In this document: piece by piece, positions 4,756 to 42,665 of the stretch | Layout of the letters: each line of letters opens with the position of its first letter | How positions within the stretch are numbered: position 1 is the first letter of the stretch | Assembly (NCBI GenBank): GCA_031279765.1 | Contig: JAITHU010000043.1 | Span: 1 to 44,609, forward strand | Reading direction: 5' to 3' | DNA length: 44,609 bases | Origin: Mycoplasmataceae bacterium | GTDB lineage: Bacteria > Bacillota_I > Bacilli_A > Mycoplasmatales > Mycoplasmoidaceae | Program-made: the position numbers and the translations under genes | The notes under the pieces: generated by a model | Database searches by the model: none | What the model was told of the DNA's origin: nothing | What the model saw: only the letters and a program-made list of their open reading frames with translations

Positions 4756-6204
4756 ATGAATAATATCAAAAAAACAAACGGACAAAATTTCGAGATGCTA
4801 GAAATGCATAAAGTTAAAATAATTAAAAAAATTAACTTGTTGAATATTGATGAACGTTTAACTGCAATAACAAACGCTGGTAACAATACTTTTTTATTAC
4901 ATAATAAAGATATTTTTTTAAATATGTTAACCGATAGTGGTGTTAACGCCATGAGCGATGCGCAACAAGCTGCTAGCATGATCGCTGATGATGCTTATGC
5001 TGGTAGTGAAAGTTTTTTTAAACTTGAAAAAACTTGTCAAGAAATATTTGGTAAAAAATTTCTTGTACCAGCTCACCAAGGAAGAGCTTGTGAGAATATA
5101 ATTTGCAAAACTCTAGTTAAAGCAAATACATTTGCGTTAACAAATCATCACTTTACAACTACAAAAGCACACGTTGAATTAAATGGTGGTAAAATGATTG
5201 AATTGTTAGCTAATGAAGGATTCAAACCAGAAAGTACAAATCCTTTTAAAGGTAATGTTGATCTTAAAAAATTACAGGATTTTATTTCAAAAAATAAAAA
5301 AAATATTTCTTTTATGCGAATAGAAGCGGGAACTAATTTAATTGGTGGACAACCAGTTTCGTTAGAAAATATGATTAAAACATGTGAATTGTGCAAAAAA
5401 AATAATATCATAACAATATTAGATGCTAGTTTACTTACAGATAATTTATATTTTATCAAAATACGTGAAAATAAATATAAGAATATGAACATATCAGAAA
5501 TAACAAAGATTATTTCTAAACAATTTGATATTATTTATTTCTCTGCAAGAAAATTAGGTAGTGCAAGAGGTGGATGTATTTTGTTAGATGATAAAAAAAT
5601 ACTTGCAACAATGCAAGATTTAGTTACACTATATGAAGGTTTTATCACTTATGGAGGAATGAGTATATCTGAATTAGAAATGATTAACATTGGTTTACAA
5701 GAAGCAATGACTATGGAAATGATTTCACATGGACCGATGTCAATAAAATTTTTAGTTGATCAATTAACGAAAAATGGTGTACCGATGATTACTCCAGCTG
5801 GTGGTTTAGGTTGCCATTTAAATGCAATGAAATTTTGCGATCACATTCCAAAAGAACAATATCGAGCTGGCTCATTAGCAGCAGCTATTTATTTAATTTC
5901 TGGAATAGCTGGTATGGAACGTGGAACAATTAGTGAAGAACGTAATCCTGATGGTACTGATCATATCGCAAATATGGAGTTAGTTAGACTTGCTTGTCCA
6001 CGTCGTATATTTACAAAATCGCAACTTGAATTTGTAATTGATAGAATTACTTGATTATATAAAAATAGAAAATTAATTGGTGGATTAAAGTTCAAATTTG
6101 AACCAAAATTGTTGCGTTTCTTTTTAGGAAAACTTGAACCAACAAGTAAGTGACAAGAAAAGTTGGTTAAAAAATTTAAAGATGATTTTAAAGGTAGTTT
6201 ATAA
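4756..6204 (+). CDS. Tyrosine phenol-lyase-like PLP beta-eliminating lyase
   Basis: A 482-residue member of the tyrosine phenol-lyase/tryptophanase family, PLP enzymes that split tyrosine to phenol, pyruvate and ammonia (or tryptophan to indole). The sequence follows tyrosine phenol-lyase more than tryptophanase: LTDSGVNAMSD, DDAYAGSESFF, VPAHQGR, HFTTTKAH, GGQPVS, MERGTIS and VRLACPRR. The PLP lysine is Lys266 in FSARKLG and the pyridine-binding Asp is Asp223. An Arg that contacts PLP in both classic enzymes (Arg217 in Citrobacter tyrosine phenol-lyase) is Leu226 here (DASL), so activity or specificity may differ. The last 50 residues lie after a TGA(Trp). No tnaB-like permease is adjacent. 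The reaction is reversible in vitro, so a link to the aromatic genes at 17-32 kb is possible but only an inference. Confidence 0.82.
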
Positions 6205-17389: not shown

Positions 17390-19324
17390 ATGAACAAAGC
17401 GGTACAAACGATAAAATTATTAGCATTAGAAGCGATTGCGAGTGCTAATTCAGGTCATGGCGGAATCGCTTTAGGTGCTGCCAATACAATATATGCATTA
17501 TTTCATGATCATTTAAATTTTGATATAAAAAACAATGATTATTTTAATCGTGATAGATTCATTCTATCATCAGGCCATGGAAGTGCATTATTATACGCAA
17601 CAATGTGTGTATTTGGTTTCAATGGAATTAATGTAGATGATTTAAAAAGTTTTAGAAAATTCGATAGTAAAACACCTGGTCATCCAGAATCTTTAATTAC
17701 TCTAGGTATTGAATTTTCTACTGGTCCATTAGGTCAAGGAACAAGTAGTAGTGTTGGTTTTGCTATTTGTGAACAACACTTAGCAAATTTAATTTCACCA
17801 AAAGTTATTAATCATTACACATATGTAATGATGGGTGATGGTGATTTAGAAGAAGGCGTTACACAAGAAGCAATAATCATTGCTGGAAAATTAAAACTAA
17901 ACAAGTTAATTTGGTTATATGATTCTAATGATGTTCAATTAGATGGTAATGTACAAGATTCTACTAACTGAGATGTTAAACAAATATTTCAAGCTAGTGG
18001 TTGAAATTATATTTTTGTAAAAGAACCAAAAGTTGAAGAAATTTCTAAAGCAATCGCAAAAGCAAAACTTTCTTCTGATAAACCAACACTTATTGAAATT
18101 AAAACAATAATAGGTGAAGGAGTTGATGAAATAGAAGGAACTAACAAAGCACATGGTTTTACACCTAATTTTGAAAAAGTAGATCAATTAAAAAAAAAAT
18201 GAAATTATTCATATGATAATTTTGTCATACCTAATGATGTAAAAGAAGATTGTGAAATTTTACAAAAACGATGTAAAAAAAATATTGATGAATTTAATTT
18301 AGAATTAGAAAAATTGAAATCTAACGATAAAGAAAAATATGATTTGCTTGAAAAAATTCTAAATGATAAATTTTATATAAACTATAATGAACTCGAAAAA
18401 ATTACTACACCTGAAAAATATTCTTCTAGAGAATTTGTTGGTTTGGTATTTAAAAACATATGAGATAAAAATACTAATTTTTTAACAGTAAATCCAGATA
18501 TTTCATCATCAACAAAAATTGCATGTTCAAACGCGAAACAAAATATTCAAGTTGGGGTAAGAGAATTTGTGGCAGCTGCAATTGTTAATGGTATTGTTGC
18601 TCACAAAGGAAGTCGTGCTGTTTTTTCATCGTTCCTTTCTTTTGTTGATTATTGTAAAGCTTCGTTAAGAATTGCTGGTTTATCTTCACTTCCGGCGTTG
18701 GGTGTTTTTACACATGACTCAATTCTTGTAGGCGAAGATGGTCCTTCACATCAACCAATTGAACAAATACCTTCATTGCGATTGATTCCTAATTATTTTG
18801 TATTTAGACCATGTAATATAAAGGAAGCAATTGCGGCATTTAAATGATATTTTGAAAATTCTAAACCAGTTGCAATTATTGGTTCACGATCTGGTTTTAA
18901 ACAAATTTATAATAACGATATTTCTATTGATGAAATTAATAAAGGAGCTTATGTATTAATAAATGAAAAAGATTATGATTTAATAATTATTTCAACAGGA
19001 AGCGAAATTGCATTAAGTTATGATGTTATTAATTTGTTAAAAGAAAAAAAAATAAAATGTCGATTAATTTCTTGTGTTTGTCTTGAATTATTTCGTAAAC
19101 AAACTGAGGAATATAAAAATAATTTATTAGGTAATAAAAACAAACCGATTGTTTCAATTGAATTAAGTATGCCGTATATGTGGTATGAATTAGCGGATTT
19201 TGCTATTGGTGTTGAAACATTTGGTGTAAGTGGAAAAATGGAAGACATTGTTAAAAATTTAAAATTTGATCCACAATCGGTTTGTGATAAAATTTTAAAT
19301 TTTTTAAAAAAGCAAAATAAGTAA
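17390..19324 (+). CDS. tkt: Transketolase
   Basis: Thiamine-diphosphate enzyme of the non-oxidative pentose phosphate route; it can make erythrose-4-phosphate, one of the two substrates of DAHP synthase. The 644-residue product has the N-terminal HGSALLYATM and thiamine-binding GDGDLEEGVTQEA (near residue 150), the conserved Glu in VGVREF (near 392), and FTHDSILVGEDGPSHQP in the pyrimidine domain. The segment around residues 250-300 looks looser than in typical enzymes. Several TGA codons are Trp. It is the first gene of a unit with aroA four bases after its stop, so here it appears dedicated to the shikimate route. A second transketolase elsewhere would support that. Confidence 0.93.
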
Positions 19325-19328
19325 CAAT

Positions 19329-20495
19329 ATGGAAGAATGTAAAGTACTAGACAAATTACCAAAAGGAGAAATTGTTGTTCCACCATCAAAAAGTATTTCG
19401 CATAGAATGGTAATATGCCAAATGTTAGCGAATGGTAAATTAGAAGATATTGCAAATCTTGGAACTTCTAATGATATCACAGCTACAATTAACGGAATGA
19501 ATACTATTTGCAATAGTAAAAATAATAATGATATTATTACTATTGATTGCAATGAATCAGGTTCAACACTACGTTTTTTAATTCCTATCGCTATTGCTAT
19601 TTCAAATAAAACATTTATTTTTACTGGTAGTGAAAAATTATTTGAAAGACCGCTTAGTGTATATGAAGAAATTTTTTCAGAAAATAATATTGATTTCAAA
19701 AAAGAAAAAGGAAAATTTATTGTTAGTGGTTCATTAAAACCAAATAAATTCTATGTTAAAGGAGATGTTAGTTCGCAATTTATTTCTGGTCTATTATTTG
19801 CTTTACCTTTATTAGATGGAGATAGCGAAATCATTATCACAACTAAACTTGAATCAAAAGAATATATTGACTTAACGATTGATGCAATGAAACAATTTAA
19901 TGTTTTTGTTGTTAAACAAACAAATGGTTGAAAAATTAAAGGAAAGCAAAAATACAAACCAACAAAAGTTTATGTAGAAGGAGACTATTCACAAGCTGCA
20001 TTTTGATTAGTTGCAAAAGCACTTGGAAACGATGTTTCGTGCGTTGGTTTGAATTCAAATAGTATTCAAGGGGACAAAGAAATTATTAATGTTATAAATC
20101 AAGCAACTAATAAATTAAATCCTATTGTTGTTGATGCTACGAATATTCCTGATTTAGTTCCGATCATAACTGTATTTATGTGTTTTTTGAATGGAACTAG
20201 CAAAATTATCAACGCAAGTCGTGTTAGATTAAAAGAAAGTGATCGTTTACATGCAATTACTACAGAATTAAAAAAACTTGGTGCAGAAATTGAAGAATTA
20301 CCAGATTCTTTAATTGTACATGGAAATAAAAAATTACACGGCGGAAATGTCGATGCATGAAATGATCACCGTATCGCAATGTCTTTAGCAATTATTTCTA
20401 CAAAAATTTTTGATGAAATCAAATTAAGTGGTTACGATTCGGTAAAAAAATCATATCCAACTTTTTGAAATGATTTTGAAAAGGTAAAAAAATAA
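19329..20495 (+). CDS. aroA: EPSP synthase (3-phosphoshikimate 1-carboxyvinyltransferase)
   Basis: Sixth step of the shikimate pathway: joins PEP to shikimate-3-phosphate. The 388-residue product shows the family motifs in order: PPSKSISHR (residues about 18-26), NESGSTLRFLIPIA, DVSSQFISGLLFA, RVRLKESDRLHAI and the C-terminal WNDHRIAMSLAI. It is a little shorter than the usual 420-430 residues. The form ESGSTLRFLIPIA is, from memory, typical of clostridial AroA, which may hint at the source. TGA is Trp four times. Its stop overlaps the aroC start (TAATG), so the two are probably translationally coupled. Confidence 0.95.
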
Positions 20496-21490
20496 TGAAT
20501 AAGTGAGGAAAAAATATTAAATTAGAAATTTTTGGTACTTCTCATGGAAAAGAAATAGGTATTACAATTTATAATTTACCAAAAAATTTTGCATTAAATA
20601 TGGATGCGATACGTGATGATATGAATCGACGTCGTCCTGGATATACTATCATTTCTACTCCAAGAAAAGAAGCTGATGAGTTTGAAATTTTATCAGGTGT
20701 TGAAAAAAATATTTTAAATGGTGAACCATTAAAAATGGTGATTCAAAATACAAATATTAAAAGTAGTGATTACAATAGTATTTTAAGACCAGGACATGCT
20801 GATTGAACAGCGTTTTTAAAATATGGTGAAGTTTTACCAGGTGGTGGACAATTTTCTGGTAGATTAACTGCTCCAATCGTTTTTGCTGGTGCAATTGCAA
20901 AACAAATATTAAATAAGAAATTTAATATTATCATTACTTCAAAAATTTTAAGTGTTGGTACTCAAAAAAATCCTACCAACGAAGAATTAGAAAAGATTGT
21001 TTTAAAAACACAAGAAAAATCAGATTCGATTGGTGGAGTTATTCAAGTAAGAGCAACAAATATTCCTAAAGCATTGGGTAGTGATTTTTTTGGTGGTATA
21101 GAAGCGCTATTATCTACTTTATTTTTTTCTATACCAGCAGTAAAAGGTGTAGAATTTGGAGATGGCTTTAAATTAAGTGAATCATATGGTAGCATGACAA
21201 ATGATGCAATTTATGCGGATGAAAATAAAAATATTTTTTCAAAAACAAATCACATGGGTGGAATACTAGGAGGAATTAGTAACGGAATGGATATCGTTAC
21301 TAATATTGCTATTAAACCAACACCTTCTATTAGTATTGAACAAGATAGTATTAACTATAAAACATTTCAACCAGTAAAAACAAAAGTTACTGGTAGACAT
21401 GATCCGTGTATTGTTCCAAGAGCACTAGTAGTTGGAGAAGCAATGATGGCAATTGGTCTATTAGAATTAACAGAGGAAAAAAATGAATAA
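20495..21490 (+). CDS. aroC: Chorismate synthase
   Basis: Last step of the common pathway: FMN-dependent removal of phosphate from EPSP to give chorismate. The 331-residue product (usual 350-390) begins MNKWGKNIKLEIFGTSHGK and carries RRRPGYTIIST, RPGHADW, the FMN region GGGQFSGRLTAPIVFAGAI, HMGGILGGISNGMDI and GRHDPCIVPRALVVGEAM. The SGRLTAP form, instead of SARETA of enterobacteria, is the clostridial type. The usual GEPVFDKLDA region is shortened. TGA is Trp in the first codons and again in HADW. It overlaps aroA by one base and aroK/pheA by eight. Confidence 0.95.
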
Positions 21491-22526
21491 TTATTATTTA
21501 ACCGGAATGATGGGAAGTGGTAAAACAACAATCGCTTCTGGTTTATTAAACAAAAGTAAAATAAATAAATTTAAAATAATTGATATTGATTCATTAATTG
21601 TTAAGGAAACAAAAATGTCAATTAATGATATTTTTGCTAAATACGGAGAAAAATATTTTCGTGATTTAGAAACAAGAACATTAGAAAAAATAAGCAAGGA
21701 AGATAATTTAATTGTTAGTTGTGGCGGAGGAATTATTTTACGTGATGAAAACTTAAAAATAATGAAAGAAAGTGGATATGTTATTTATATTAATCGAACA
21801 ATTAAAAATATTATTTCAACAATTAATACTTCAACACGTCCATTATTAAAAGATGGTGTTAAAAAAATAAGAGAAATTTTTAAAAAAAGAAAACAAAGAT
21901 ACTTTTCTAGTGCTGATTACATTATCGAAAACAATAAAAGTGTTAATGATGCAATTACTCAATTGTTAAATTTTTCTAAACTACCTATTGTTGGTTTTCA
22001 AGGAATTAATGGTTCATATTCTAACATTGCTGCTAACAAATATTTTAATAAAAAAGAAAATAAATTCATTTGTTTTCCTACTTTTGAAGAATTATTAGAT
22101 AATTATGAAAAAAAAATAATTGATTATGTTGTAATTCCTATTTTTAATTCTACAACTGGTGAAATTAAACAAACAACTGATTTAATATCAAAATTAAAAT
22201 ATAAAAAAGAACTAACGAAAATTACAATTCCAATTCATCATAATTTGTTAGCGTTGCAAACTAGCAAAAATATAAAAAATATTTGATCACATCCACAAGC
22301 TTTAAAACAATGTAGTAAATTTATCAAAGAAAATAAGTATGTACCTATGGAAAAATTGAATACAGCAATTGCATGTAAAGAATTAATTGATGTAAATGAT
22401 AACAACGTTGGTGTGATCGCTTCAACACTAGCAGCTAAAATTTACAACTTAAAAATCATTGCAAAAAATATCGAAGATAAAAAAAATAATAAAACAACTT
22501 TCTTAATATTAAAAAATAATTTTTAG
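21483..22526 (+). CDS. Shikimate kinase fused to prephenate dehydratase, no ACT domain
   Basis: A 347-residue bifunctional protein. Residues 1-165 are shikimate kinase (AroK): P-loop GMMGSGKTT, IDIDSLI, YFRDLETR, SCGGGII and the lid Arg in STRPLL. Residues about 168-347 are prephenate dehydratase (PheA): GFQGINGSYSNIAA, VIPIFNSTTGEI, PIHHNLLAL, WSHPQALKQC, NTAIACKEL and AKNIEDKKNNKTTFLIL. The product of the second part, phenylpyruvate, leads to phenylalanine. The chain ends right after the catalytic core, so the C-terminal ACT domain that binds phenylalanine for feedback control is absent. The catalytic TRF motif is TTF, so the Arg is lost. The two domains are in one frame with one TGA(Trp) between. 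It overlaps aroC by eight bases. Confidence 0.92.
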
Positions 22527-24984: not shown

Positions 24985-26370
24985 CTACTTTACTTTTTTT
25001 AACAAATCATCAATTTGTTTTAAAACCTGTTTCTTGTTCGGACCACCAATTGATTTACGTTGTTCAACAATATTTTTTAAATTAATCGCTTTATAAATAT
25101 CATTAGTAAATAAACTATTAAATTTTTTATATTCATCAATTTTTAATTGGTTCAATGTTTTATTTTGTTCAATACAATAACGAACTATTTTTCCACTTAT
25201 TTCATGTGCTTCACGAAAAGGAATATTTTTCTTTACTAAAAAATCAGCAACATCTGTAGCGTTCATATAACCTTTTTCTGAAGCTTCTAGCATAACGTTT
25301 GTATTGAATTTTAATTTAGGAAACATTTTTGTGAATAATTCAATACAAGCATCAACAGTATCGATTGCATCAAATAAACCTTCTTTATCTTCTTGCATAT
25401 CTTTGTTGTATGATAATGGTAAACCTTTCATTACAACAAATAATGAAAACAAATCTCCATATACTCTTCCTGTTTTTCCTCTAATTAATTCCGAAATATC
25501 TGGATTTCTTTTTTGTGGCATCATTGAACTACCAGTACTAAATTCATCTGGTAAAGTTACATATTTATAATCATTACTTGCTCATATAATAATTTCTTCA
25601 TTTATTCTTGACATATGCATCATAAATGTTGCTAATGAAAATAAGTGTTCTAAAATATAATCACGATCACTAATAGCGTCCATTGAATTAGCAATCAAAT
25701 TTTTGAAACCTAATTGTTTAGCAACAAAATTTTGATCAATATTAAAAGTTGTTCCACATAATGCACCAGATCCAAGTGGCATATAATCGCTACTAGTTAA
25801 ATTGTTTTCCATTCTTATTAAATCGCGATAGAACATTTGACAATATGCTAACAAATAATGTGCTAATGTAGATGGTTGCGCTTTTTGCAAATGTGTAAAA
25901 CCTGGAACAATATCATCAAGGTGTTTTTTAGCAACATTAATTATTGCGATAATTAATTCTTTTATTTTTTTTATAAAAATATTACATCTATTTTTAATAA
26001 ACATATGCATATCTAATGAAACTTGATCATTTCTGCTTCTAGCGGTATGTAATTTTTTTCCAACATCACCAATTCTATCAGTTAGCACTTGTTCAACAAA
26101 CATATGAATATCTTCTCCATCAGTAATTTTTATTTTTTTCATTTCGATATCACTCAAAATTTTTTTTAGTGTTTTGATAATTAATTCACTATCTTTTACA
26201 CTAATAATTTTTTGTTTCCCTAACATTGAACAATGTGCTATAGAACCAAGAATATCTTCTTTGTATAATTTTTTATCAAATCTTAATGAACTATTAAAAT
26301 CATCAGCTTGTGGATTTAATGAACCACTATAAACACCAGATCATAATTTATGTTTTTTCTTATCAGCCAT
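24985..26370 (-). CDS. argH: Argininosuccinate lyase
   Basis: Splits argininosuccinate to arginine and fumarate, the last step of arginine synthesis. The 461-residue product has the fumarase-superfamily signature GSSMMPQKRNPD near residue 280 (with the catalytic Ser loop), TARSRNDQV, GFTHLQKAQP (His-Leu-Gln motif) and MPLGSGALCGT. Two TGA codons are Trp, one in the segment that joins the two halves (IIIWASNDY). It starts three bases after the argG stop, so the two form an operon. No argA-argF genes are present in the window, so citrulline must come from elsewhere. Its stop nearly meets that of the convergent nuclease gene. Confidence 0.95.
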
Positions 26371-26373
26371 AAA

Positions 26374-27690
26374 TTATTTCTTTTTATTTTTATTTCAATT
26401 AATTATTCTTATTGATTTAATTTTTTGATATCCAGCTGTATCAGAAGGAGTAAATCCTCCAAGAACATCCATACTTACAAACGATTCATCGTATAAACTA
26501 TTTGGAGAACTACGAATAATTGCATTAACTGTTCCTTTATATAACTTTGCAATAACAAAACCATTAACATGTTGTTGTGAATTATTAAAGAACGCCATAA
26601 TTGCATCAAATTCTGGAGAATATCAAAATCCTTCGTAAACAATGTAAGATAATTCATTAGCAAGATTGTATTGTAATTTTAGTACTTCTTTATCTAAACA
26701 AAGCATTTCCATATGATGATGACATTCTGAAATAATAAAAGCTCCAGGATTTTGATATATACCATGATTTTTTAAACCATTAACTCTTGTTTCAACAATA
26801 TCAGTGTTTCCGATTCCGTGTTTAATACCTAATTTATTCAACTGGTTTACAATTTCTAATGCACCAACGTATTGTTTAATACTTTTGTTAGAACTATTTA
26901 ACAATTCTAACTTAACTGGAATTCCAGCTTTAAAATGTAATTTAATATTTTCTGGAGTATTAGATACTTCTTTAAATCAAGGTTGAGGAACTAATTTATA
27001 TATATCTTTTTCTGGTGGTTCTACATCAATTTTTTCTAGTATTCCAGCTTCGCTACTAATATATGCAATATTATCATCAGTTGAATAAGGTTTAGTAGAA
27101 GTATGTTCAACTTGAATATTTTGTGCTTTGCAAAATTCAAGTAGATCTTTTCTTCCTTCAAAGTAACTTAAGAATTCTTCATCTGCTCACGGAACAATCA
27201 TTTCTACACTATGATTCAATGAACGACAATTAATCATAAAACGTGTAGTATCATTACCTTTAGCAGTACATCCGTGAGCAATAAATTGTGCTTTTTCTTG
27301 CTGAAGAATTTTAACAGCTGTTTTTGAAATTATTGCTCTAGCAGGAGAACAACCCATTAAATATTTTCCTTCATATTTAGAACCAGTTTTTAAAATTTGA
27401 AGAATATAATTTTCAACAAATTCTTTCTTTAAATCAACAACATAAGCTTTACTTGCACCAGTTTTCAAAGCTTTTGCTTTTACCTTTGTTAAATCATCAC
27501 ATTGTTGACCTACATCAGCGGTTAATGTGATAACATCATACCCTTTAAGAGAAAGATATTTTAAAATACTTGAAGTATCTAAACCACCAGAATATAACAA
27601 AATAACTTTTGGTTTTTTTCCATTAATTTTTGGAATAATTTTAAAATTTGGATTTTTATAATTTTTATTAAGTGTTTGTTTTTTTATCAT
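26374..27690 (-). CDS. argG: Argininosuccinate synthase
   Basis: Joins citrulline and aspartate at the cost of ATP. The 438-residue product carries the N-type P-loop LLYSGGLDTS near residue 34, GCSPARAIISK, HGCTAKGNDTTRF and the later IGNTDIVETRVNGLKNHGIY. An N-terminal extension of about 25 lysine-rich residues precedes the fold. Several TGA codons are Trp. A TATAAT on the minus strand at 27700-27705 is nine bases from the ATG. The gene is divergent from aroQ across a 53-base gap. With arginine deiminase elsewhere this could form a citrulline cycle; alone it suggests citrulline uptake. Confidence 0.95.
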
Positions 27691-27743: not shown

Positions 27744-28202
27744 ATGAAGCTATTAATTTTGAATGGACCTAATTTAAATATGTTAGGAAAAAGAGAACCA
27801 GAAATTTATGGCAAAGAAACACTTGAAGATATAAAAAAGAAGTGTAATTTAGAAGCAAAAAAATTAGGTATTTCTATTGAATTTAAACAAAGCAACTCTG
27901 AAAGTGAATTAGTTACATGAATTCAAGATGCACTTAATAAATTTGATGGTATAGTTATTAATCCTGCTGCATATACACATACATCGGTTGCAATTCTTGA
28001 TGCATTAAAATCAGTACAAATCCCAACAGTTGAAATTCATTTATCAAATGTATTTCAACGTGAAGAATTTCGTCATCATTCATATGTTTCATTACAAGCA
28101 AAAACTGTTATAAGTGGTGCTGGAAGTAATGGTTATTTATTAGCAATAAATGCTTTTAAATTAAATGAAAATATTTGAATTAAAAAAAATGGAAAAAAAT
28201 AA
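27744..28202 (+). CDS. aroQ: 3-Dehydroquinate dehydratase, type II
   Basis: Third step of the shikimate pathway. The 152-residue product is a typical type II dodecameric enzyme: [18 protein letters not shown] at the start with the catalytic Tyr, [45 protein letters not shown] with the active His and Arg, and [11 protein letters not shown]. Two TGA codons are Trp. The 3' end overlaps the next gene by 14 or 38 bases, depending on which ATG (28189 or 28165) starts that gene. It heads the aroQ-aroE/DAHP synthase-aroB unit. Confidence 0.95.
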
Positions 28203-30174
28203 AATAAAAAAAGCTGCTGTTATTGGAATGCAGGGTATAGAAAAATACTCTTTATCTCCAATAGTTCACAATTATTTTTTTAAGCAAACTAAAATACCTG
28301 GACAATATTTTGCTTTTCCTGTAGAACAAGATAAGTTAGTTGAATTTTTACAAAAACTAATAAAAGAAGGTTATGATGGTGTTAATTTAACAATCCCTCA
28401 TAAGGTTGAAATTTTAAAAAATAAAATAATTAATCAGAAAGATGAAAGTGTTTTATCTATCGGTGCGACAAACACATTAAAATTTATTGATGGAAAAATT
28501 AAAGCTCTTAATACTGATGGTTATGGTTTTATTACTTATCTACAAGAAAAAAATAAAAATTGAAATCCAAAAAAAACTAACGCATTGATATATGGAGCTG
28601 GTGGAGCAACAAGAGCAATAATTTTTGGTTTAAAGAAAAGTGGTGTAAAAAATATTACTATTTGTAATAGAACGCAAGAAAATGCTGATTTATTAGCGAA
28701 AGAATTTAGTTGCAAAACAATAAAGTGAGAAAATAAAAATAAAACAAAAGGTTTTAATTTAATTATCAATTCAACATCATGCGGAATGAAGAACGTTAAT
28801 AATCTCGATATTACTTTTGAACAAAATGATAAAGATACAATTGTTTACGATATTGTATACACACCATTAAATACACAATTTTTAATTAATGCACAAAAGA
28901 AAAAATTAATTACAATTGATGGACTAGGAATGTTAATTTATCAAGCAGCTAAAGGTTTTGAAATTTGATTTGATAAAAAACCAAAAGTTACAAAAGAATT
29001 ATTTGATCTATGTTTAGAAAAGTTAAATAATCAATGATCTCATAATTCGTGAGTTAATTCATTAGAAAAAAAGCATATGCCTACATATGAAAACCAAAAA
29101 GATTTAGCAGATGTTAAAAAAAAATTATTATCTAAAAAAGATTTAATTAATATTGATAAATTAATAAAACTAAATAAAGATTTAGCAAATGTTGAAAAAA
29201 ATAAATCATTCATCATTATGGGCGGGGATTGTTCAGAAGTTATGTGAGACTACAAACCAAGTGATGTTAATGCAACTATCAAAACATTATTCGAAATGAA
29301 AAAAATACTTGCACAAAAATATAAAAATATTTTTTTATTTGGAAGGATGGCTGGACAATTCGCTAAACCACGTTCGAGTGATACAGAAATTGTTAACGGA
29401 GTAACTTTGTCAACATACAAAGGTGATATTATTAATAAAACTAATCCTAATATTAAAGATAGAACACCTAATCCAAAATATATGCTTGATGCATATGAAT
29501 TATCAGCAAAGAAGATGGAACTAGTGGAAAAGTATGATGATTTATTTACATGTCATGAAGCTTTGTTGCTTGATTACGAAGAAAATTTTATTAAAAAAAA
29601 TAAAAATAATGAATATTATTTATCATCAACATATCTTCCATGAATTGGTGAAAGAACCAGAAACATAAATAGTGCACATGTAGAATTTTTAAGTAATATT
29701 ATTAATCCTGTAGGTATTAAAGTAAGCGAAAAAACAGATACTGAAGATTTAATAAAAATAATTAAAAAAATTAATAAAAACAATGTTAATGGAAAAATCA
29801 TTTTAATCATTAGAATGGGAAGCGAAAAAATTAATAATTTTTTGCCAAATATTATTAAAAAAATAAAAGAAAGTAAATTAAACGTTCTTTGAACTTCTGA
29901 TCCTATGCACGGTAATACGCAAACAATTGATAATATGAAAACAAGAAAATTAGATGATGTCATAAGTGAAATTGATAATTTTATAAAAGTATGTAAAAGC
30001 AATGGTGTTTATCCAGCGGGAATACATCTTGAAATGACCGGATTAAATGTTACTGAATGCATTGGTAAATTTTGTGAAAATTTAAAAGGAAACTATACAA
30101 CTACATGTGATCCAAGATTAAATGGTAAACAATGCATTTATATTGCTACTCATTTAGAAGATGCAAAAAATTAA
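28165..30174 (+). CDS. Shikimate dehydrogenase fused to class II DAHP synthase
   Basis: A single 669-residue frame, open once TGA is Trp, encodes two pathway enzymes. Residues about 15-275 are AroE (step 4): SLSPIVHN for shikimate, NLTIPHK with the catalytic Lys, NTDGYGF, the NADP loop GAGGATRAI and [11 protein letters not shown]. Residues about 290-669 are a class II (plant/mycobacterial-type) DAHP synthase (step 1): [67 protein letters not shown] and CDPRLNGKQ. The junction codons between 28921 and 29221 contain no TAA or TAG. The synthase lacks the N-terminal extension that binds phenylalanine in the mycobacterial enzyme, so feedback control may be absent. ATG 28189 is an alternative start. 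It overlaps aroB by 14 bases. I know of no common fusion of these two. Confidence 0.93.
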
Positions 30175-31322: not shown

Positions 31323-32402
31323 ATGGCGGAATTTAAATTTGTTGAAAACAAAAATAGTATCGATAAACAAAAAATATCTAGTATTTTAGCTAGTATTAAA
31401 GAAAAACCTGTATTTGGAAGACAGTTCACTAATTATATGGCACATATTAAATACGAAAATGGTGTGTGATCAAATCATGAAATTATTCCATTTGCTAATA
31501 TTTCATTATCACCAGCTGCGTGTGTTTTTCATTATGGACAAGAAATATTTGAGGGTATTAAAGCTTATAAGTGAAATGATAATAGTGTTCATAGTTTTCG
31601 CGTTAAAGATAATGCAAAAAGATTTCAATTTTCAGCAAAAAGATTAGTATTACCAGAATTACCAATAGATGATTTTTGTGATGCGGTTACGAAACTATTA
31701 AAAGTAGAACAAGATTGAGTACCAAAAGAAGAAAATATGAGTTTGTATATTCGTCCTTTTATGATTGCCACCGAACCTTTTTTAGGTATAAAAGAATCTA
31801 ATATAGTAGATTTTTATGTAATTTTATCACCAGTTGGTCCTTATATTAGTGGTGTTGCTACCATTTGGTTAGAAGATACTTATTTTAGAGCTGGTCCTGG
31901 CGGAACTGGCAATTCTAAATGTGGTGGAAATTATGCCGCAAGTTTATTACCAAAAAAACTCGCAGCTAAGCAAGGATGTAATGATTGTTTATTTTTGGAT
32001 GCAAAGAAAAATAAATATATCGAAGAGTTTAGTGGTATGAGTTTCTTTTGTGTTGATAAAAATAATATTTTATACACTCCAAAAATTAACGATTCTATAT
32101 TAGATTCCATTACCAGAGATAGTATTATTAAAATTGCTAAAAAAATGAAATACAAAGTTAAAGAAACAAAAATTATTTGAAAAGAACTTTTAAATAAAAT
32201 AAAAAATAAAGAAATAGTAGAAATATTTGCTTGTGGTACAGCAGCCGTTGTCAGTCCTGTTGGCGTTATAAAAGGAAAAGACTTTGAAATAAAAATTAAT
32301 AATGGTGAAATAGGAAAAATTAGTAAATTATTAAAAGAAGAATTAGTCGGTATACAAACAGGGAAAAAAACAGATAAATTTGGTTGGGTAGTAAACGTTT
32401 AA
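31323..32402 (+). CDS. ilvE: Branched-chain-type aminotransferase (IlvE family)
   Basis: Fold-type IV PLP aminotransferase. The 359-residue product follows the larger (type II) branched-chain enzyme: [27 protein letters not shown], the PLP lysine Lys199 in [25 protein letters not shown] and a C-terminal [10 protein letters not shown]. The last residues are shorter than usual but the fold seems complete. No ilv or leu genes are in the window. Its place at the end of the aro unit suggests that it turns phenylpyruvate into phenylalanine, a side activity known for some members; direct specificity is not readable. TGA is Trp in four or more places. Confidence 0.9.
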
Positions 32403-32469: not shown

Positions 32470-33395
32470 ATGGACGTGAAAAAAAAGATAGTTTGAGATT
32501 TGTTTGGGGGGGTCAGAACTCTGTTTACAATGCACTCAAAAAAGATAATAACTATGTAATATATACTTTTGATGTTACATCACCAACAAGAAAAAAACAT
32601 TTAGTAATCGATTTAGCTCAAGAAAATATAGTAAATGTTTTTAATAAAAAAATCAAAAGTGGAGAAATTAAAAAACCAGATATCATTATATCTTCAACGT
32701 TATGTCAATCATTTAGTAGCATTACATCGATGAGGAAAGATGAAAATGGTAACAAGGGTACTTCCGGTTGAATATTTAAGGAATACGATGAAAAAGGAAG
32801 AAAATTATCAAAACCAAAATTTATACTAAGAGATGAAAAAAGTTTTGAAAAATTAAAAAGTGGATTTACAAAACATTTAAAATGAAAAACACAAAATTTT
32901 ATTGCAAAGTTAGGTTCTCAATGTATAAAAAATACAATAGAATTAATAAAATATTTTAAACCAAAGTATTGGTATATTGAAAATCCAAACACTTCTAGAT
33001 TATGACAATACATTGAATATTGTACAGATTTTTTTAATTATTTAAAAAAAAATAACATGAGTTATTTTTTTAACAAAGCTACCTATGGTAAGTATGGTTA
33101 TCCCACAGCAAAATATACTTACTTTTTATCTAATGTTAAATGTGAAAAACCATGTTTATTATTTGGTACAATCGAAAAACCATGATATTGATCAAATGAT
33201 GAAAATGGTAAAAAATGTATGAGATTAAAAGCAACTAATAGAATAATAAAATCAAGAATCGCAGCATTTGGATATTTTACAAAATCTGGAAAACAAAAAG
33301 AAAAAATAAGTAATTATCAAACATGCGAAGCTGGTAACAATAGCTTGATTCCTAAAAAACTTATAAATGATATATTTCTAAATTTTAAATTTTAA
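32470..33395 (+). CDS. DNA cytosine methyltransferase-like gene, out of frame at G7
   Basis: From the ATG at 32470 one reads KKKIVWDLFGG, the AdoMet motif I. The frame then breaks at seven G. With eight (or five) G it continues as DLFGGGQNSVYNALKK and on to about 309 codons. Downstream are KPDIIISSTLCQSFSSI with the Cys of motif IV, LGSQCIKNTIELI and YWYIENPNTS, an ENP form of motif VI. The family is a C5-type or related methylase seen beside McrBC-like nucleases. As sequenced, only a fragment could be made. TTG at 32493 opens the downstream frame but would lose motif I, so no active enzyme. The stop is two bases before the McrB-like start. G7 is striking in DNA this AT-rich. Confidence 0.75.
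32506..32512 (+). repeat. G7 homopolymer in methylase motif I
   Basis: Seven G, coding for the Gly run of AdoMet motif I. Length 7 shifts the frame, while 8 or 5 restores it. G runs of this size are otherwise absent from the window. Confidence 0.8.
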
Positions 33396-33396
33396 T

Positions 33397-34971
33397 ATGG
33401 CAATAGCACAAAATATTATAAATATATTATTACGTAATTATATTGAATATAGTATAGTTGATGATGAGAAAATCAAAGAATATTTAAATTTGAATGATAA
33501 ACACAAATTTAATACTGGATATTTAATTTCAGAACAAAAAACGAATCAATATTATCCTAATTTTGTAAAAAATAAAAATAGCGATAAAGAGTGATTTTTA
33601 AATTCGCAAATTAAAGATGATGAATTAAAGTTTCTAATAAAAGAAATTAATAAAATTTTAAATTTCAATAATGGTGATGATTTACTGCCAATAATATTTG
33701 AAAATAATGATTTTTTTGAAGAAAAAAATTATGAAATGTTTATTCCTAATCAATTTGGTGGTTCATTAGATAAAAACGTAAAGAAAGATAAACTTAAAGG
33801 TATATGTTTCTTTGATAATAATAATCCTACTCAACTAGCGGAAATACAAAATAGAAATGTAAAACAGTTTATCATTGAAAAATTCAATGATAATTACCAT
33901 ACAAAATTAACTATTGATAATAAAGAAAAAAGGCCTAGTAATGGTGCTGTTATTCCAAAGAAATTAAAGGAAAGTGGTATTAAATTCAAAATAATTTTTT
34001 TTGTAAAATATGAATTAAAACAACAAAATGAACAAGAATTGATAAACAGTGAACAAAATATTCATAACAATAACTCTACATCTAATCATGTTTTTGATTG
34101 GTTTAATAAAATAATTTATGGTATACCTGGTAGCGGAAAATCTTATTATATTAAAAAAAATATTGCAATTGCAAATAAAATAAAACCAGAAAATCAAACT
34201 AGGATTGTTTTTTATCCAGAATATACTTATTCTGATTTTATTGGCGCTATACGTCCGATTACTAATACAAAAGAAACTAACGATAATAAAATTTATGATT
34301 TTGTTGCTGGACCGTTTATTAAATTATTAAAAAAAGCAATAGATAACTCTAATGAAAATTATTTATTTATTATTGAAGAAATAAATAGAGGAGATGCACC
34401 AGCAATATTTGGTGAATTTTTTCAATTATTAGATAGAGATGATAATGGTGTTTCAGAATATCCTATAACTAACTCCGATTTATCAAATTATATTTATAAC
34501 AACGAAAACAAAAATGTGTATATACCAAAAAATTTGTTTATCATCGCAACTATGAACACAAATGATCAAAACATTTTTGTTCTTGATACTGCATTTAAAC
34601 GTAGATGAGAATTTGAAAAATATGAAGAGGAATGTTCCGCTAATGATGAAATTAAAATATGTGCACATGATTTAACATGAGGAAATTTTCGCAAAACAGT
34701 TAATGAAAAAATTGTTTCTATTCAAGATAAGAATGATTCATTTGGTGATTATAGAATAGGAACATATTTCCTAAAGGAAACAGAAATAAAAAATGCTGAA
34801 AAATTTAAATATAAAATTTTTGATTATCTATTTAATGATGTAAAAAAATTCGATAAAGAATTATTATTTGGAGAACTTAAAAATTTGGATGAAATTTTTA
34901 AAGAATTCAAAAAATGACAAGATGATATTGAAAAAGATTTTTTTGATATTTTTCCAAAATTAAAAAAATAA
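33397..34971 (+). CDS. McrB-like AAA+ GTPase subunit (LlaJI R1-like)
   Basis: Motor subunit of a restriction complex. The 524-residue product has an N-terminal domain of about 225 residues that I do not recognise, presumably DNA-binding, then an AAA+ module: Walker A YGIPGSGKS near residue 242, YSDFIGAIRP (the McrB-type YxDF block), Walker B FIIEEINRG near 325, and the sensor IATMNTNDQNIFVLDTAFKRRW. A second TGA(Trp) series continues to the C-terminus. It sits two bases after the methylase and six before the LlaJI-type nuclease, so the three form one operon. It looks intact. Confidence 0.85.
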
Positions 34972-34976
34972 ATTAT

Positions 34977-36134
34977 ATGGAAATTAAAAAATGAAAATCA
35001 GAAAATAGTTTTGGGTATAAGCACGAAAATTCACAAATTCTCATATCTTTTCCAGAAGAATTGGATATTGAATGCGATTCCAATGATTTAATTAATATTA
35101 ATAAAAAAAATAATAGAAAAAACTTAAGGAATTTTTTTAATGTTTTATACAAAAAAAAAACAAACTTAATAAAATCAAATAAATTAATTCATTCATCAGA
35201 TCACATTAATAATCTATTTGTTTCATTTGAATGAATTATTAATGCATTTTTAAATAACGGAATACCAAAAACATTTAATTATATTTTTTCAAATAATTTA
35301 AAAAATAAAATTAATTGAAAAAAAACATTTGATTCCGGTGTTTATTTTATCAATAAAAAAATTGTATTTAATAAAATAATATGTAAACAAAAAAATAAAT
35401 TAGATGATATGATTACATATAGTTTTATTAAATGTTTTAATATCGCAATAGAAAATATTGGATGATTATATAATATTAGCAAAAAAATATACATTCAAGA
35501 TAACGTTAGTAACGATATATTGTTATGTTATTTAAAAAAAGAATTAGTTAAAACGTATAAAATTGAAAACATACACATGATTAACCATATGATTAACATT
35601 TTAGATAGTAAAAACAATGGGTTAAATGAAAATAATTCTGTTACATTATTACACAATGAATTTTGAAATATTTACGAAAATTTAATTTGTAAAATTTTTT
35701 CAAATTATAAAGAAATAAATCCGCACGCTAAATGGAAAAATATTGAAGGAATTGAAAAAGATGCATCAAATTTACGTCCAGATTGTATTCACAAAGATAA
35801 ACAAAATAATATATGAATTATTGATGCGAAATATTACCATTCTGGAGATGGATATAAGGGGATGCCACAGACTTCTGATATACAAAAACAATTTATATAT
35901 GGAGAATGAATGAAAGAATATATTAATAAAAATAACATCGATAACATCAACAACATTTATTTGTGTTTTATTCTTCCAGGAAAAAATATAAACTCTATTA
36001 AGCATATTTCAACAGCTACAATGGAAATATTCAACAATAACATATATGCATATCAAATAGATTTACAAAAATTAATAAACAACGAATATAATGAAATTTC
36101 ATTTGAATACTTGCCTATTCCTGTTCAATTTTAA
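34977..36134 (+). CDS. LlaJI-type restriction endonuclease subunit (McrC-like)
   Basis: Nuclease partner of the McrB-like motor. The 385-residue product has an N-terminal McrC-like part and a C-terminal PD-(D/E)xK domain: LRPDCIHKDK near residue 265 and IWIIDAKYYHS near 282, followed by MPQTSDIQKQFIYGEWM, a block characteristic of the LlaJI family as I recall it. Ten or so TGA codons are Trp. In LlaJI itself, R1 and R2 cut unmethylated target DNA and need protecting methylases; classic McrBC instead cuts methylated DNA. Which rule applies here decides the meaning of the off-frame methylase. It appears intact. Confidence 0.82.
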
Positions 36135-37932: not shown

Positions 37933-38235
37933 TTAGTGAAGATTATTACGCTCGAATATTTCCGAATGTTCTTCTAGTTTGGCTTCTATTTTATCTATTC
38001 TAGTTTCAATCTTATCGAATCTAGTATTAACTTCAATTCTAATTTCATTGATATTTTTATTAATTCTTTCTTCCATAGTAAGCAATAATAACTCCATTTT
38101 TGTTGGTTGTTTAGGTTTAGAAGGTTTATTATTTGGATCATCAGATTTGTTCATCTTTTCTAATACAATTATATCTTTTTCTAGATTCTTGTTATTTTGA
38201 GAAGAAAGAATTGTATATTTATTAATATTCTTCAT
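37933..38235 (-). CDS. Small coiled-coil protein, copy 1
   Basis: A 100-residue charged protein. The N-terminal 40 residues (MKNINKYTILSSQNNKNLEK and so on to NKPSKPKQ) are nearly identical to those of the protein at 42339-42665. The C-terminal half is a heptad-like helix, with VNTRFDKIETRIDKIEAKLEEHSE, here quoted in parts as RFDKIETRIDKIEAKL, that ends in FERNN in both. It resembles in style the DUF16-type coiled-coil families of mycoplasmas, but I cannot assign it. No membrane segment. The ATG is preceded by the hairpin agaag-gta-cttct. A trimeric or dimeric coiled coil is likely; function unknown. Confidence 0.7.
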   Translation of the reverse strand: MKNINKYTILSSQNNKNLEKDIIVLEKMNKSDDPNNKPSKPKQPTKMELLLLTMEERINKNINEIRIEVNTRFDKIETRIDKIEAKLEEHSEIFERNNLH

Positions 38236-38629: not shown

Positions 38630-39247
38630 ATGTTTAATATATATATAACAGAATGTAGTTCAATAAGTGCAAAAGGAGAATTAAATAAATATAGCAAACT
38701 TAAGAGATACATCAACAAAAACGACAAGCAATTAGCGATATGTTCAATGAAATACAAATATTTTTTTGTAAAAAAACACAATTATGATATTAATGATTTA
38801 GTATTAACAAAAAAACCATATGTTAAAAATGCTAAATATCATTTTTCTATTTCGCATAGTTACCCATACTGTGTATTTTGCGAATCAAAAAATGAAATTG
38901 GAATAGATGTTCAATACATTAATAAAAAAATAAATTATTCAAGAATTATGAAAAAAAAATTTTTTGATGAAGAAAAAAAATATATTAAAAATGATATAAA
39001 AAAATTTTATAAAATTTGGACATGCAAAGAAGCATTATATAAAGCATTAAACAAACAAGATCAAAAGAAAAATAAATTAACGAATTTATTTATAAATAAC
39101 AAAAAAAATAAACTATTTTCAATTGTTAATAAAAAAAAATATTATTTTGTTTTTAAATATATTAAAAACTTTATTTTGTGTGTTTCGAGTACTAACGAAA
39201 AAAATAAGCTAAAAATTTTTAATTTTAAATATTCATCGTTTGAATAG
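38630..39247 (+). CDS. Sfp-type 4'-phosphopantetheinyl transferase
   Basis: A 205-residue protein of the Sfp/AcpT group, which transfers phosphopantetheine from CoA to carrier proteins. Motifs: YHFSISHSYPYCVF, GIDVQYI (Mg-binding Asp) and FYKIWTCKEALYKAL (WxxKEAxxK). It is slightly shorter than Sfp (224) and very rich in K and N. Most mollicutes rely on the small AcpS type, so this may replace AcpS or serve another carrier. No carrier protein, polyketide or peptide synthetase gene is in the window. It stands alone between the tRNA pair and the surface-protein remnant. Confidence 0.85.
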   Translation: MFNIYITECSSISAKGELNKYSKLKRYINKNDKQLAICSMKYKYFFVKKHNYDINDLVLTKKPYVKNAKYHFSISHSYPYCVFCESKNEIGIDVQYINKKINYSRIMKKKFFDEEKKYIKNDIKKFYKIWTCKEALYKALNKQDQKKNKLTNLFINNKKNKLFSIVNKKKYYFVFKYIKNFILCVSSTNEKNKLKIFNFKYSSFE

Positions 39248-42338: not shown

Positions 42339-42665
42339 TTATTTTAAATTATTACGTTCAAAAATTTTTGAATGTTTTTTTAATATGTGTGAATGTTCTT
42401 CTAATTTAGCTTCTATTTTATCAATTTTCTTTCCTTGTTCTAGTTGGATTGTTTCAATATTATCAAATCGAGTGTTGACTTCATTTCTAAACTCACCAAA
42501 TTGTTGAATCAATAAATCAATTTTTGATGTTTTTTGTTGTTTAGGTTTAGAAGGTTTATTATTTGAATTATCAGATTTGTTCATCTTTTCTAATACAATT
42601 ATATCTTTTTCTAGATTCTTGTTATTTTGAGAAGAAAGAATTGTATATTTATTAATGTTCTTCAT
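42339..42665 (-). CDS. Small coiled-coil protein, copy 2
   Basis: A 108-residue paralogue of the protein at 37933-38235. The first 40 residues are nearly identical; the C-terminal coiled coil differs (IQQFGEFRNEVNTRFDNIET, IDKIEAKLEEHSHILKKHS) yet ends in the same FERNN. So a constant head joins a variable helical tail, as if tails had been exchanged. Upstream DNA is shared, with the hairpin agaag-ata-cttct directly before the ATG. Function unknown. Confidence 0.7.
   Translation of the reverse strand: MKNINKYTILSSQNNKNLEKDIIVLEKMNKSDNSNNKPSKPKQQKTSKIDLLIQQFGEFRNEVNTRFDNIETIQLEQGKKIDKIEAKLEEHSHILKKHSKIFERNNLK

Follow-up and report, generated by a model that had tools for sequence, protein, structure and literature searches.

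A shikimate kinase-prephenate dehydratase fusion without an ACT domain, probably free of feedback control, in the draft genome of a Mycoplasmataceae bacterium

In regulated prephenate dehydratases (PDTs), such as those of Chlorobium tepidum (2QMX) and Brucella (6VH5), the catalytic core is followed by a C-terminal ACT domain that binds phenylalanine. In the P-protein PheA the dehydratase follows another catalytic domain, chorismate mutase. A PDT that ends with its core is encoded on a plasmid of the reed-beetle symbiont of Plateumaris pusilla, a bacterium with a reduced, AT-rich genome and a phenylalanine route; this protein is unfused and 228 aa long, and provisioning of aromatic amino acids has been argued as a nutritional role in that symbiosis (PMC7289800). 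Control may also be exerted at the entry to the pathway. The class II DAHP synthase PA1901 of Pseudomonas aeruginosa, which serves phenazine synthesis, is a type IIB enzyme without the alpha2a/alpha2b elements of type IIA enzymes and does not respond to Trp, Tyr or Phe (PMC6435475). In Mycobacterium tuberculosis, the chorismate mutase is regulated by the type IIA DAHP synthase in a complex (PMC6435475). AroK takes part in other shikimate-pathway fusions, such as the AroE-AroK proteins of other Bacilli (e.g. L004), in which partner and order differ from those described below.

The window analysed here is a stretch of 44,609 nucleotides (contig JAITHU010000043.1 of assembly GCA_031279765.1) from a Mycoplasmataceae bacterium, hereafter G000, whose 613-kb draft assembly has 48 contigs and 27% GC, is 83% complete and is read with genetic code 4; the code, the GC content and the size agree with a mollicute. 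Its genus is represented by 36 species and its family by 95. In one gene of the window, aroK::pheA, shikimate kinase (SK) and PDT share a single reading frame. The initial annotation had proposed an AroK-PheA fusion with exactly the gene coordinates listed below, and Pfam confirms the domain order, with SKI at residues 10-162 (1.9e-38) followed by PDT at residues 170-345 (2.6e-47). The features of the gene, in translation table 4, are as follows.

21483..22526 (+), aroK::pheA fusion gene, 347 aa (table 4, Pfam domains)
21510..21968 (+), shikimate kinase domain, residues 10-162 (Pfam and alignment of 24 AroKs)
21990..22517 (+), prephenate dehydratase core, residues 170-345, with no ACT domain behind it (Pfam, alignment, model)
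22143..22145 (+), codon TTT for Phe221 at the Glu site of the PIEN motif (E. coli E159); Glu in 30/30 aligned relatives
22284..22286 (+), in-frame TGA read as Trp268 (table 4)
22497..22499 (+), codon ACT for Thr339 at the Arg site of the TRF motif (E. coli R279); Arg in 30/30 aligned relatives

The frame is open only if TGA encodes tryptophan; with the standard bacterial code a stop at 22284 would interrupt it. In-frame TGAs occur in most conserved genes of the assembly, and the seven pathway genes contain 24 TGA versus 4 TGG codons. An open frame of 347 codons would be expected by chance at this composition with a probability of about 6e-14. Third-position GC is 0.117 and 0.114 in the two halves of the fusion, and the genes on either side are similarly low. 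The TGA reassignment, the Glu-to-Phe change at residue 221 and the fusion of AroE to DAHP synthase are points beyond the initial annotation.

The protein belongs to the PDT family PF00800 by a wide margin (161.4 bits against a cut-off of 25.2, profile positions 1-178 of 181) and stops with the PDT core at residue 345 of 347, where an ACT domain would start. All 29 homologues measured outside the genus extend 86-103 residues past the core, enough for an ACT domain; the homologue in a second species of the genus (G047) extends by 4. The fusion protein thus lacks the C-terminal ACT domain of the regulated PDT-ACT architecture. The initial annotation had also reported this absence, and it holds both in the protein, by Pfam, and in the 83%-complete assembly, in which no ACT domain was found.

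Both halves look like working enzymes. The SK half retains every residue that is invariant among 24 aligned AroKs (e.g. G11, G13, K14, D36, R60, G81-G83, R119 and R136), including the P-loop and the shikimate-binding residues of PF01202. Of the 19 positions that do not vary among 30 relatives, the PDT half retains 17. Work by Zhang et al. in 2000 reportedly identified N160, S208, Q215 and T278 as the catalytic residues of the E. coli PDT, and their equivalents N222, S269, Q276 and T338 are all in place. Residue numbering was checked against the E. coli PheA sequence. These comparisons used domain-wise alignments, since full-length alignments mixing SK-only and PDT-only rows misplaced the N termini of the PDTs; in a second alignment with chorismate mutase-PDT rows, the mutase part of some rows was set against SK. 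An AlphaFold model of the PDT core, built on a 31-sequence alignment, has a mean pLDDT of 94 and a pTM of 0.86, and the model of the full-length fusion has a mean pLDDT of 91.5 with no segment below 50. The core model has the periplasmic-binding-protein-like fold of the family, its thirteen best matches in the PDB being PDT-family entries, among which 3luy is labelled as a chorismate mutase and GqqA as an acylase; the top solved structure is 6vh5 (TM 0.89 by query length). The gene with its two halves is genuine, and both halves are predicted to be active from the residues that they retain.

The predicted core fold is the same as that of 2QMX and 6VH5 (29-31% identity, TM 0.86-0.89 by query length), but in place of a C-terminal ACT domain the window protein has an N-terminal AroK, and it carries Phe and Thr where those enzymes carry Glu and Arg. 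Like the P-protein, it places PDT behind another catalytic domain. Its partner, in contrast, is shikimate kinase, which acts three steps before chorismate mutase, and a regulatory domain is missing; the chorismate mutase of G000 is a separate protein. The reed-beetle symbiont PDT likewise ends with the core, but it belongs to an unrelated bacterium, keeps the Glu and has Lys at the Arg site. By analogy, that protein fits the idea that nutritional symbionts may shed the phenylalanine brake.

The two exceptions among the invariant positions form a pair. The initial annotation had noted that the motif TRF reads TTF, as it does at residues 338-340, but it had overlooked that the Glu of PIEN is also replaced, by Phe221, so that PF00800's usual combination of PIEN Glu and TRF Arg is absent. 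At these two sites (E159/R279), 38 aligned PDTs, some of them close relatives of one another, read Glu/Arg 34 times, Glu/Lys twice, Arg/Glu once and Phe/Thr once (the window protein), and only two of these rows depart at both sites. The charges are opposite in 37 of the 38, being swapped once, and the window protein has neither charge. This is the pattern that a salt bridge would give, and a salt bridge between E159 and R279 is suggested by this covariation. Sequencing error was considered as the source of TTF and rejected, since several base changes are required at both codons: Phe221 lies three away from every Glu codon, and Thr339 lies two or more away from every Arg codon. Because TTF is coupled to the change in PIEN, a single TTF-to-TRF variant, which the initial annotation had proposed, is not the right test. 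PIEN and TRF are both tied to substrate binding (PMC8192741, PMC10845154), E159 is reported to be important in E. coli for binding the substrate (PMC8192741), and the Thr of TRF, which the window protein retains, has proved essential in an enzyme from a fungus (PMC11980547). In the proposed mechanism, the charged Glu-Arg pair in the cleft of the PDT would have been replaced in G000 as a pair by Phe/Thr, probably with altered kinetics and with the predicted activity kept. A stand-alone PDT of 187 aa without ACT, found outside any aro cluster in G330, another Bacilli genome (L065:1765-2328, +), has the pair swapped to Arg/Glu (AIRN and TEF).

The genes around the fusion encode most of a route to phenylalanine.

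17390..19324 (+), transketolase, source of erythrose-4-phosphate, upstream of aroA
19329..20495 (+), aroA, EPSP synthase
20495..21490 (+), aroC, chorismate synthase, overlapping aroK::pheA by 8 bases
27744..28202 (+), aroQ, type II 3-dehydroquinase
28165..30174 (+), aroE fused to a short class II DAHP synthase, 669 aa
30161..31306 (+), aroB, 3-dehydroquinate synthase
31323..32402 (+), ilvE-type class IV aminotransferase, a candidate for the last transamination

The chorismate mutase is a small type II protein of about 85 aa on contig 16. In G047 the pathway is more compact, with chorismate mutase-aroA-aroC-aroK::pheA facing aroB-DAHP synthase-aroQ-aroE on opposite strands within about 7 kb in all; AroE and DAHP synthase are separate genes there and fused in frame in G000. 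Chorismate-binding enzymes of the Trp, folate or menaquinone type were not found in five genomes of the genus, and TyrA, sought as a PDH_N match at E<=0.1, was absent from G000 and present among the five only in G051. With neither a chorismate-binding enzyme nor TyrA found, the visible pathway of G000 leads only to phenylalanine.

The same five genomes contain no match to an ACT domain at E<=1, whereas 14 of 14 control genomes do. A separate ACT protein that binds the enzyme would have undone the claim of lost control; it was looked for, and none was found in the 83%-complete assembly. The DAHP synthase, which the initial annotation had called trimmed, is indeed so: it lacks a stretch of about 56 residues where type IIA enzymes have alpha2a/alpha2b, its residues 163 and 165 joining positions 176 and 233 of 5uxm, and it aligns with PA1901 (6BMC) in one continuous stretch. 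It is thus a class II enzyme without alpha2a/alpha2b, as type IIB enzymes are, and like PA1901 in this respect; unlike PA1901, it is fused to AroE and lies in an amino-acid pathway. Three class II DAHP synthases were found in the genus, and each is without positions of about 165-225 of the PF01474 profile. At Rfam gathering thresholds the window shows neither a T-box nor any other riboswitch. As judged from sequence, these results support the loss of both classical control elements, so that the earlier statement that both feedback points are gone stands at that level. With no ACT domain found in the assembly and a DAHP synthase without the segment of the aromatic-amino-acid site, no allosteric braking by phenylalanine is expected. 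The accompanying view that such loss is what a reduced genome would show fares less well: reduction alone is insufficient, as the pathway is simply missing from most species of the genus (aroC occurs in 5 of 36).

The AroK of the fusion is found in 5 of 320 genomes of the order, all five in one genus, and the five proteins form one clade (99/98). G047 has the same ACT-less fusion (45% identity), with Glu and Arg both in place. In G040, G051 and G054 AroK is a stand-alone protein of 163-170 aa directly after aroC, and PDT was not found. G040 (L017/L067) and G054 (L019) have aroC, aroK and chorismate mutase, and neither PDT nor TyrA was found in them. On contig 42 of G051, TyrA is fused to a PheC-type cyclohexadienyl dehydratase without ACT (L066:2647-4260, +); the best dehydratase match of the PheC half is 5jos (E 9.6e-43), and its sequence family is unrelated to PDT. 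A non-homologous replacement of the phenylalanine step within one genus is therefore likely, as far as these sequences indicate. The same fusion was sought elsewhere, as the initial annotation had suggested, in overlapping sets from the order (320 genomes), class (395) and phylum (392), about 660 distinct genomes in all, and among the matches listed G047 has the only other AroK-PDT fusion. The Bacilli genomes that carry AroE-AroK fusions likewise have no AroK-PDT fusion among the matches listed. The matches looked at in phage and plasmid collections searched with the PDT core are ordinary PDTs. Neither an AroK-PheA fusion nor a phenylalanine-making mollicute was found in the open literature, a scope that leaves out most subscription papers.

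The fusion likely originated when adjacent aroK and pheA genes were joined and the ACT tail was lost. A Streptococcus suis plasmid has the order aroA-aroK-pheA, in which aroK and pheA share 10 bp, and the fusion could arise directly from such an overlap; in other Bacilli, e.g. family f23, PDT precedes AroK. AroC trees place G000 with G040 and G051, apart from G047, and neither these nor the AroC+AroK trees make G000 and G047 sisters (p-AU about 0.035), so that a single fusion would require later losses of PDT or gene transfer. In the PDT tree the branches of the window protein and G047 are long, and their sisterhood is neither supported nor rejected. The fusion may have preceded the split, with PDT lost later; it may have been transferred; or two fusions may have occurred.

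These results favor, with reasonable though not high confidence, a bifunctional AroK-PDT enzyme in a phenylalanine-only pathway, predicted to be active despite the Phe/Thr pair and insensitive to phenylalanine. The enzyme would be cytosolic; its N-terminal half would phosphorylate shikimate, and its C-terminal half would dehydrate and decarboxylate prephenate to phenylpyruvate. The pathway would run from DAHP synthase to chorismate and through the small separate chorismate mutase, PDT and an aminotransferase, apparently to phenylalanine only, and phenylalanine, to which the fusion is probably insensitive, would not allosterically brake the flux. One objection is that two otherwise invariant PDT residues are changed, one of which (E159) is reported to matter for substrate binding in the E. 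coli enzyme (PMC8192741). An unlikely reading of this change is that the PDT half is a decaying or non-catalytic tail on an active shikimate kinase, with phenylalanine made by another enzyme of the PheC type or not made at all. The loss of the two residues in G000 only, the three congeners with stand-alone AroK and no PDT found, and the unrelated TyrA::PheC of G051 would agree with this, and the PDT half could be drifting if a PheC were present in G000. Both changes, however, fall on one charge pair and not at random, and 17 of 19 invariant positions, the codon bias and the predicted fold are kept; G000 also retains chorismate mutase and everything upstream of it in the pathway, and the TyrA-linked PheC is absent from G000 by the PDH_N search. 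The missing 17% of the assembly could hold a second PDT, TyrA, PheC or ACT protein. It figures again in the slightly more doubtful proposal that feedback acts by another route, through a phenylalanine-binding protein encoded there, control of the SK half or transcriptional control. Enzymes without a regulatory domain can be regulated in complexes, the M. tuberculosis chorismate mutase being an example (PMC6435475), but five related assemblies lack ACT, the window lacks riboswitches at Rfam gathering thresholds, and the DAHP synthase lacks alpha2a/alpha2b.

The altered pair may also be read as a change of function. BacA is a non-aromatising prephenate decarboxylase. It is improbable that the PDT cleft became free to change through the loss of ACT and the joining to AroK, with Phe/Thr giving altered substrate use or an altered product, e.g. 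by non-aromatising decarboxylation of prephenate, and a shade less probable still that the PDT half has BacA-like chemistry or acts on another cyclohexadienyl substrate. The only two changed invariant sites do sit in the substrate-binding motifs PIEN and TRF (PMC8192741, PMC10845154), and the charge-swapped pair of the ACT-less G330 protein indicates that this pair can be retuned; the equivalents of N160 and T278 are retained, however, the gene context is that of a plain phenylalanine pathway with an aminotransferase, and the G047 fusion has the standard residues. That the fusion or its odd residues are artefacts of assembly or sequencing is very hard to credit, even in a fragmented draft of 48 contigs: the G047 fusion was assembled independently, the frame is unbroken through the junction, and the number of base changes needed at Phe221 and Thr339 is as given above.

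Other genes of the window are of interest in their own right. argH and argG are adjacent (24985-27690, -) and specify a route to arginine from citrulline that is unusual for such a genome. An enzyme of the tyrosine phenol-lyase/tryptophanase family (4756-6204, +) scores below both equivalog cut-offs, and a 4'-phosphopantetheinyl transferase-like protein (38630-39247, +) is a surprising find in so small a gene set. Judged by eye, 32493-36134 (+) holds a DNA methyltransferase-like ORF and, behind it, two that resemble McrB and McrC; together they may form a restriction locus. Two small ORFs (37933-38235, - and 42339-42665, -) have near-identical N-terminal halves (MKNINKYTILSSQNNKNLEKDIIVLEKMNKSD...), an apparent duplication.

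The AroK-PDT fusion is a rare variant of known enzymes and not a new kind of enzyme. A near-complete phenylalanine route is unusual in a 0.6-Mb genome, the order being almost entirely without aromatic amino-acid synthesis. The coupling of E159 and R279 offers a testable explanation both for the odd TTF motif and for the conservation of the two residues in PDTs. Across the genus, the last committed step is an ACT-less PDT fused to AroK, a PheC fused to TyrA, or a step that was not found, which makes this genus a compact natural experiment on the loss or replacement of feedback control.
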